A program made the position numbers and the translations under genes. The notes under the pieces were generated by a model, which worked only from the letters and a program-made list of their open reading frames with translations, ran no database searches and had not been told where the DNA came from. DNA of 64,000 bases, from NCBI RefSeq assembly GCF_004339765.1, contig NZ_SMGO01000002.1, positions 124,001 to 188,000 on the forward strand, written 5' to 3'. Within the stretch, counting starts at the first letter, position 1; each line of letters starts with the position of its first letter. The stretch is from Albibacterium bauzanense (GTDB taxonomy: Bacteria > Bacteroidota > Bacteroidia > Sphingobacteriales > Sphingobacteriaceae). Of this stretch, positions 22,457-63,563 are shown in pieces.

Positions 22457-22590
22457 ACTCCATTATTTCATCAATTTTCAGCTGCATTTAAGCAGCATGG
22501 AATTGCTATGTCTTTATTTTACTATAGCGCTTACGATGCTGTATAATCTGTCGAAACCCTGATCGAAGATCGTTAAAATCGCGATTTACT

Positions 22591-22691
22591 CAAACAAGGG
22601 TTAAACAGGGTTCAAACAGGGACCAAACAGGGGCATAACAGTCCTATTGCCCTTGTTTGAACCCTGTTTGATCCTTGCTTTATTCCTGTTT
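22591..22691. repeat. dyad array of 11-bp-phased AAACAGGG / CCCTGTTT repeats
   Basis: Five forward units start at 22592, 22603, 22614, 22625 and 22636, with (A/T)AACAG or AAACA cores, mostly AAACAGGG. Four inverted units have TGTTT (or TGCTT) cores at 22654, 22665, 22676 and 22687. Spacing is exactly 11 bp in each half, about one helical turn. The two halves can pair as a long imperfect hairpin around 22645. A related array lies at 63383-63473. Confidence 0.8.
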
Positions 22692-22742: not shown

Positions 22743-22776
22743 AAAAAGAGGATGCTCTTTCGAACATCCTCTTTTT
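22743..22776. terminator. bidirectional terminator between metG and frr
   Basis: A perfect 12-bp inverted repeat, AAAAAGAGGATG (22743-22754) with CATCCTCTTTTT (22765-22776), with a 10-nt loop. A and T runs flank the stem on both strands, so it can serve both converging genes. Confidence 0.85.
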
Positions 22777-63336: not shown

Positions 63337-63382
63337 CTAGCCTCTTACTAAAGAATTCACTTGTCCATACTTGACTAATATC

Positions 63383-63473
63383 AAACAGTAAACAGACAGT
63401 CCTTGACCAGTCCTTTTACCACTGCTTAACCACTGTTCAACCACTGTTTGACTACTGTTTAACCACTGTTTGA
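63383..63473. repeat. 11-bp-phased repeat array with CTGTTTRA units
   Basis: Seven units start at 63400, 63411, 63422, 63433, 63444, 63455 and 63466, exactly 11 bp apart; the last five carry CTG(T/C)T(T/C) cores such as ACTGTTTAACC. Two AAACAG copies in the other orientation lie at 63383 and 63390. The core is the same as that of the array at 22591-22691. The array fills the gap between the formimidoylglutamase end and the regulator gene. Confidence 0.8.
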
Positions 63474-63563
63474 GTATAGCGAATTTTAAAGACGTTTCTT
63501 TTTAAGAACGAAACAGACAATAAGATTGAATATTTTACGCTGGAATATTATAAGGTTTCTGCC

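Follow-up and report, generated by a model that had tools for sequence, protein, structure and literature searches.

A helically phased two-armed array in the metG-frr gap, counted among at least 26 dispersed copies, belongs to an element family linked to DUF6266 genes

Introduction

In the REPIN-RAYT system, as one account of it describes, each dispersed repeat type belongs to one gene, copies of the repeat lie beside that gene and in other intergenic DNA, and gene and repeat co-evolve (PMC6006769). The same account mentions Bacteroidetes genes of subclass 2.6 with atypical flanking structures, copies of which occur at other places in the genome (PMC6006769), and REP families of 20-100 copies or fewer have also been reported (PMC3733652). 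A second point of reference is ParR-parC, described as having direct repeats upstream of the cognate operon, 11 bp long in plasmid R1 and 10 bp in pB171, with a repeat specific for each ParR and with the ParR of R1 needing two 11-bp repeats (PMC9426499).

Here we analyse an array of 11-bp units between metG and frr in the window, the whole 64,000-nucleotide stretch of DNA under study, together with its relatives in the same genome and family. The arrays resemble REPIN-RAYT in having one gene per type, a repeat beside that gene and intergenic copies, but the partner is DUF6266, in which we find no Pfam Y1/HUH domain, and the arrays are a ladder of 11-bp units where REPINs are a GT[AG]G-tagged hairpin; their copy number, 9-15 per type, is low for REP. 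They share with ParR-parC helically phased repeats upstream of a cognate gene (48/77 DUF6266 genes), yet differ from it in their inverted arms, their many chromosomal copies and a partner protein with no Pfam ribbon-helix-helix match. Like MITEs they are short, intergenic, copied as whole units and present or absent between species, and in one family of the sister species G001 they have end blocks in inverted order; unlike MITEs they have no known cognate transposase, retain a phased interior and pair with a cognate gene other than a known transposase, and no conserved ends were found in six other array families. On our best reading the system would work like ParR-parC or RAYT-REPIN without being either.

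Results

Architecture of the metG-frr array

The features of the window that bear on the array are as follows.

22570..22591, plus strand: left extension kept among GGG-type copies, consensus like CGTTCATATCTCGATTTACT (alignment of 10 GGG-type copies)
22592..22646, plus strand: strong arm, five 11-bp units, AAACARGGNNN and a last TAACAGTCCTA (unit reading, period scan)
22639..22655, no strand: dyad centre CAGTCCTATTGCCCTTG, counterpart of the TGG-type centres CAGTCCTATTACCACTG / CAGTGGTAAAAGGACTG (comparison with TGG-type copies)
22647..22691, plus strand: weak arm, four inverted 11-bp units TGTTT, TGTTT, TGCTT, TGTTT (unit reading)
22743..22776, no strand: terminator-like hairpin on the frr side, 52 bp past the array (inverted-repeat search)
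63381..63474, minus strand: second member in the window, TGG type, strong arm about 63415-63474, weak arm 63381-63414 (period scan, unit pattern)

The original prediction, made from the sequence alone, had described five direct and four inverted units at exact 11-bp steps, and our reading agrees with it base by base. The strong-arm units start at 22592 (AAACAAGGGTT), 22603 (AAACAGGGTTC), 22614 (AAACAGGGACC), 22625 (AAACAGGGGCA) and 22636 (TAACAGTCCTA), and the inverted units, each step being exactly 11 bp, at 22654, 22665, 22676 and 22687; the description of these four as TGTTT-type holds for three of them, the third being TGCTT. The array matches itself at period 11 in 32/44 positions, above the maximum of 28 among 100 Markov control windows of the same dinucleotide make-up, and its two arms are 76% complementary across 49 bp. 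A period scan of the window exceeded 27/44 for periods 11 and 22 only, with period-11 peaks of 32 at metG-frr and 36 at 63408-63482, where the array at 63381-63474 repeats the metG-frr architecture with units TTTAACCACTG. Conservation among the GGG-type copies begins about 22 bp left of the array start given in the original prediction, where values of 0.83-1.15 bits per base precede the first units and drop to 0.33-0.71 further out (10 copies).

The identities of metG and frr are confirmed by NCBIfam and the intervening gap measures 340 bp, as had been proposed. The hairpin said to lie 52 bp further on is likewise present, though a terminator scan of the window listed none in the metG-frr stretch. 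CRISPR arrays consist of 20-50 bp repeats parted by unique spacers; the units here are contiguous 11-bp repeats with no spacers, which excludes a CRISPR array and bears out the earlier view. A known structured RNA is excluded in the window by a search of Rfam 15, which returned 0 matches at the gathering score.

A dispersed family in the genome and its relatives

In what follows G and L numbers label the genomes and loci of the analysis, G000 being the window's own genome (3.08 Mb). The genome-wide search for period-11 units that the original prediction had proposed proved productive: patterns of 11-bp-repeated units gave 7, 47 and 49 matches in G000, with 0 for the reversed pattern, and locus retrieval resolved them into 26 distinct arrays, namely 10 of GGG type (AAACAGGG units, including the metG-frr array), 15 of TGG type (AAACAGTGG units, including 63381-63474) and one mixed (L053). 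This count is possibly incomplete, since the GGG-type site C2:494342 surfaced as a 3-mismatch match of a pattern from other genomes. The genome carries at least 26 scattered copies of a helix-phased, inverted-arm element of about 110 bp, among them the metG-frr array; this dispersal, the wide family beyond it and the link to DUF6266 described below all lie outside what the original prediction had in view. Every array pairs about five strong units on one side with about five weaker inverted ones on the other, around a centre such as CAGTGGTAAAAGGACTG; conservation, highest in the strong arm at 1.6-1.9 bits, drops toward background outside some 9-11 units. The GGG copies have position-specific units in common, AAACAAGGACC, AAACAGGGTTC, AAACAGGGACC, AAACAGGGGCA and AAACAGTCATA, and because copies of one type share such units they look copied as whole elements, not convergent.

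Every one of the 26 G000 arrays is intergenic when ORFs of at least 100 aa are considered, although 15 and 21 bp of two nominal 111-bp array spans run into an ORF, and at L071 the array is overlapped by a doubtful 75-aa ORF. The gaps are convergent in 10 cases, tandem in 12 and divergent in 4, and the orientation of solo copies in G000 relative to neighbouring genes follows no rule that we could find beyond the intergenic position.

A unit-independent pattern, (RAAC N7) x5, matched 29/301 genomes of the family, G000 included, in 7/25 genera; its reversed control matches in some genomes as well, and part of these matches are therefore other tandem repeats. Across species the units vary, the 11-bp spacing is constant and the dyad is kept in many loci. 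Related genomes thus do carry phased copies and the spacing does not drift freely, the two points on which the original prediction had said that it could fail. Genomes of genus g17 have 11-bp-phased TTCG/CGAA dyads (L097, L098, L099, L102, L107, L108), and G275 has seven such sites. Their neighbours are HTH_3 proteins above cut-off at L097, L102 and L107 and below it at L099, with no match at L108, and the dyad of L098 lies near a gene for a CarbopepD_reg_2 protein that by eye looks like the start of a TonB receptor.

Arrays upstream of DUF6266 genes

At five loci where a gene start lies beside an array, the gene encodes DUF6266 (PF19781): L051 (G000), L085, L087, L088 and L101. For four of these proteins DUF6266 was the sole Pfam match above the curated cut-off, and L088 was identified in a separate PF19781 search. 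Pfam gives no function for the family, and among open-licence PubMed Central papers we found none on DUF6266 or PF19781 and none on such arrays.

A profile search found PF19781 in 15/41 relatives, at 57 listed places. Our first set comprised 40 of these genes from 15 genomes, 17 having been dropped beforehand (11 were the second gene of a tandem pair and 6 were fragments or lay at contig ends), and an array was scored where the period-11 self-match reached at least 26/44 within 400 bp upstream. Such arrays stood upstream of 22/40 genes and downstream of 0/40. The strongest period was 11 in 21 upstream regions and one downstream region, and 10 in 8 and one respectively. For a second set, 37 named loci from Pedobacter, Daejeonella, Chitinophaga and MAGs, the corresponding counts of arrays were 26/37 upstream and 0/36 downstream. 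Pooled, the figures are 48/77 upstream and 0/76 downstream, or 43/72 upstream after removal of five genes first noticed via their array (L144, L262, L263, L265, L266). At the threshold, dinucleotide-shuffled upstream regions scored in 3/2310 cases. Other genes of the named loci had an upstream period-11 array in 4/74 cases, located in L271, L284 and L294, each of which is listed with a second DUF6266-like neighbour that may be the array-bearing control gene. Among all 77 upstream regions, scores of at least 26/44 occurred for period 11 in 48, 22 in 23, 10 in 8, 20 in 5, 19 in 4, and 9 and 21 in 3 each, with every other period in at most 2.

The arrangement is recurrent as well: of the 48 arrays 43 allowed the order of the arms to be tested, and of these 34 have the inverted arm facing the gene, 8 have it on the far side and one is a tie, and the strong arm starts 130-190 bp before the start codon in 27/48. 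At the same threshold 29/77 DUF6266 genes have no period-11 array, among them the syntenic pair L142/L146, array-less in both species (G000/G001). Upstream arrays of period 10 occur at L115, L116, L127, L148 and L273, and the G007 genes L117, L128 and L138 show upstream periods of 9 or 19, which are not whole turns.

Taken from the side of the arrays, PF19781 was present in 20/20 array-bearing genomes (19 above cut-off) compared with 15/41 relatives; these 20, which span three genera only, are 19 of the 28 other genomes with a (RAAC N7) x5 match plus G049, nine matched genomes having been left out of the search as plain tandem repeats by eye. By our reading of locations, at least 8/38 array sites of the 19 genomes lie within about 400 bp of a DUF6266 gene. 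At L091 (G216:C19:32195-32908) a DUF6266 pseudogene with three internal stops lies beside a period-11 array that is still recognisable.

One gene, one repeat type

The dispersed type matches a DUF6266 gene's own array in four genomes, G000 (two types), G001, G018 and G021. Within G000 the GGG family matches the array of the gene at C1:750420 and the TGG family that of C2:1098040, so that both dispersed families have a gene partner; the third DUF6266 gene, C1:290673, has no array. The likely partner gene of the metG-frr array, which is of GGG type, is G000:C1:750420-751025. The TTCGGA unit of one G001 gene returned 23 matches at 14 sites in G001 (reversed control 0), none in G000, G004 or G007, and five in G016, whose own gene has a like unit. 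A joint pattern of single-gene units gave 36 matches at 15 sites in G021 and 21 matches at 9 sites in G018, again with 0 for the reversed control, and one 3-mismatch match in G000. The rule of one gene to one type, which holds in the four genomes named, fails for two G004 genes, whose arrays had no further copy in a search at 0 mismatches. Units also vary among the DUF6266 genes of a single genome, as between TTCGGAC and CAGTGG/CAGTCC in G001, and likewise in G004 and G007. Over 41 genes protein identity correlates with unit similarity (Mantel r 0.246, 0/5000 permutations), a correlation that may also arise from an array being inherited with the adjoining gene.

A Y1 transposase was sought because Bacteroidetes subclass 2.6 genes are reported to have atypical flanking structures (PMC6006769). 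The domain PF01797 (Y1_Tnp) gave 0 matches in G000, G001 and G016, 3 in G018, 3 in G021 and 2 in G155, and was present in 5/14 control genomes. Its absence from G000, G001 and G016 rejects a RAYT/Y1 transposase as the partner and, with it, membership of the REPIN-RAYT system.

The DUF6266 protein and its neighbours

In the predicted structure of the L262 protein (pLDDT 86.8) we see a three-strand meander and two helices as well as an FN3 domain. Its C-terminal half matches FN3 domains with Z about 10, which indicates fold and not function; an alignment with one viral model gave TM 0.58 over the query. Modelled alone, the N-terminal part gave pLDDT 81.8 and pTM 0.59; a solved fold for this half was found neither by Foldseek (best E 1.8) nor by VIA (best Z 2.2 over 80 aligned chains), which is no proof of a new fold. 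All 77/77 DUF6266 proteins carry a net positive charge over their first 70 residues, with a mean of +9. On four DUF6266 proteins Pfam reported neither a ribbon-helix-helix nor a Y1/HUH domain above cut-off.

Among 336 neighbouring ORFs the clusters found in most loci were those of a DUF6266-like gene (19 loci), of a membrane protein (12 loci) and of a CHAP protein (7 loci), which rejects a conserved neighbour as hidden transposase. At L142:187-1788, L146, L116 and L128 the DUF6266 gene is followed by a small membrane protein and then a CHAP endolysin-like protein, an order like that of a lysis cassette, which is array-less in the G000/G001 pair; a HipA-like kinase gene (L142:2146-3393) adjoins this array-less operon in G000. 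The membrane and CHAP neighbours suggest another role for part of the DUF6266 family. A phage or plasmid origin was considered and rejected, the L262 protein having no match in phage or plasmid collections; the L142 protein had one weak match in an 8-kb phage record (28.5% identity, 72% of query, E 2e-4). A scan of viral contigs with one peptide pattern returned no relative, PHROGs returned nothing for three DUF6266 proteins, and PADLOC returned nothing.

Turnover and element ends

When nine G000 array sites were sought in the sister species G001, flanking genes were recovered for six. Both neighbours are kept at two of these, metG-frr and trx, and both sites are array-free in G001, where the gaps measure 80 bp and 71 bp versus 340 and 313 in G000 and hold a terminator-like hairpin. 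At the other four synteny is lost on the array side, and their 3.3-kb loci contain no period-11 array (maximum 22/44). Comparison of 18 G001 arrays with 27 G000 loci yielded one common site, the gap between metK and a lipid-kinase gene; four more pairs have a single homologous gene nearby in common, not the gap. In the metK gap (L073, L075) the array is of TGG type in G001 and of GGG type in G000, as if the site had been kept and the type exchanged.

Each of the 13 solo TTCGGA arrays retrieved from G001 lies between two inverted copies of a 16-base block, spaced by 249-306 bp in 12/13; the block is absent at the DUF6266-linked TTCGGA copy. Scores of at least 12/16 were reached at the left end in 13/13 and at the right end in 9/13. 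Scores in the wrong orientation go up to 12 (left) and 13 (right), so that the left end alone is unambiguous throughout. Used alone as a query, the block had 11 exact matches in G001, all at TTCGGA arrays and revealing one new array, and one match in G000 versus 4 for the reversed control. End blocks were not found in the two G000 types, G001 TGG, G018, G021 or G155, and no target duplication was clear by eye at the 13 solo arrays. At L308 (G001:C1:372948-373210) a TTCGGA array is flanked by a direct repeat of about 26 bases, near-identical by eye, with the end block inside; possibly this is a long target duplication. Together, turnover and end blocks favour a copied, mobile-like element.

Discussion

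Our findings place the metG-frr array in a family of dispersed elements and point to DUF6266 as its partner. The explanation we prefer, with a probability of roughly 0.6, is that this is a solo array of such an element, that each array family is cognate to one DUF6266 gene with the same array before its start codon, and that the protein is a candidate co-operative binder that regulates itself and also occupies solo sites. With about five 11-bp units in each of two arms that mirror one another across a short centre, the element would present one unit per helical turn. DUF6266, through its basic N-terminal part and followed by its C-terminal FN3, may bind these units co-operatively on one face of the DNA along both arms, with monomers meeting at the centre; recurrent phasing, combined with freely changing units and a dyad, suggests protein monomers on one helix face. 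Binding of DUF6266 to its own array is proposed from sequence comparison, as it best explains why the unit changes with the gene. The protein would then regulate its own promoter via the upstream array, and the solo copies may be further binding sites or substrates copied around the genome. The original prediction had offered either a co-operative DNA-binding protein on one helix face or an extruded structure. The first of these fits, because the 11-bp spacing recurs (48/77) while the units vary between genomes and genes; the second did not find support, as set out below. We acknowledge that several observations count against a strict rule of array and gene, namely the 29/77 genes with no array, the periods of 9 and 19 in G007, the two G004 arrays with no copies and the opposite geometry of 8/43 arrays, and that FN3 domains, which are common in unrelated proteins, also count against the DUF6266 reading.

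An alternative that we regard as unlikely is that a third, host-encoded regulator binds all arrays, the DUF6266 genes belonging to its regulon and the solo arrays being its other operators. The arrays do occupy operator-like places, the strong arm starting 130-190 bp before the start codon in 27/48, and neither Pfam nor structure comparisons recognise a DNA-binding domain in DUF6266. Against this, units vary among the DUF6266 genes of one genome and one regulator could hardly read them all, 10/26 G000 arrays lie between convergent genes, which are poor places for an operator, and it is whole arrays with position-specific units that have been copied.

Quite improbable, in our view, is the proposal that an unlinked transposase moves the arrays as miniature mobile elements and that the DUF6266 copy is incidental or a captured promoter. 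The whole-element sequence with edges common to copies, the empty metG-frr and trx sites of G001 and the inverted 16-base blocks that bracket the solo TTCGGA arrays of that species all speak for it. However, the end blocks were not found in six other families, some G000 gaps (114 bp) are too small to hold them, and a place and geometry upstream of DUF6266 that recur with unrelated units in several genera are not incidental; a Y1 transposase, the only transposase class searched, is moreover absent from G000, G001 and G016.

That the element acts as a hairpin, whether transcribed RNA or extruded DNA, is very improbable. Eleven base pairs make one turn of A-form RNA, and the metG-frr array, like many copies, folds far better than its shuffles (z about -8 on both strands). 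Yet in six array families a copy's own arms pair not clearly better than arms exchanged between copies: own and swapped energies were -42.6 vs -43.3 kcal/mol for the G000 TGG type (14 copies), -48.6 vs -47.5 for G000 GGG (5 copies) and -45.8 vs -47.1 for G001 TGG (4 copies), and the mean rank of the own arms against that expected was 8.07 vs 8 in G021 (15 copies), 4.67 vs 5 in G018 (9) and 7.93 vs 7.5 for G001 TTCGGA (14 copies). The arms match because both repeat one motif, and the window contains no Rfam family. Chance, or slippage of a simple tandem repeat in a single intergenic gap, for which one could cite that short-period repeats occur in intergenic DNA and that the reversed control of the loosest pattern also matches in some genomes, is already refuted by 26 G000 copies with a centre and dyad in common and reversed controls of 0, and by the link to one gene family.

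Returning to DUF6266 as the binder, we put forward tentatively, at somewhat less than even odds, that it represents a new class of sequence-specific DNA-binding protein, one that, with its unassigned basic N-terminal part and FN3, would read an 11-bp unit per turn, form a two-armed filament at a dyad and, together with its copy-spread arrays, make up a self-maintaining chromosomal system retargeted by a change of unit, all without known transposase chemistry. By the features tested, DNA architecture and partner protein both fall outside the known gene-and-repeat systems. In summary, the work gives context to a protein family that had no function attached to it and to a class of intergenic DNA in Bacteroidota related to Pedobacter. 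Should DUF6266 not bind, the arrays still mark a dispersed, helically phased element. If it does bind, dozens of natural protein/array pairs that differ in their units would become available for learning how DNA is read by a protein whose fold is unassigned, and the family would constitute a second, independent case of one gene paired with one repeat beside REPIN-RAYT.
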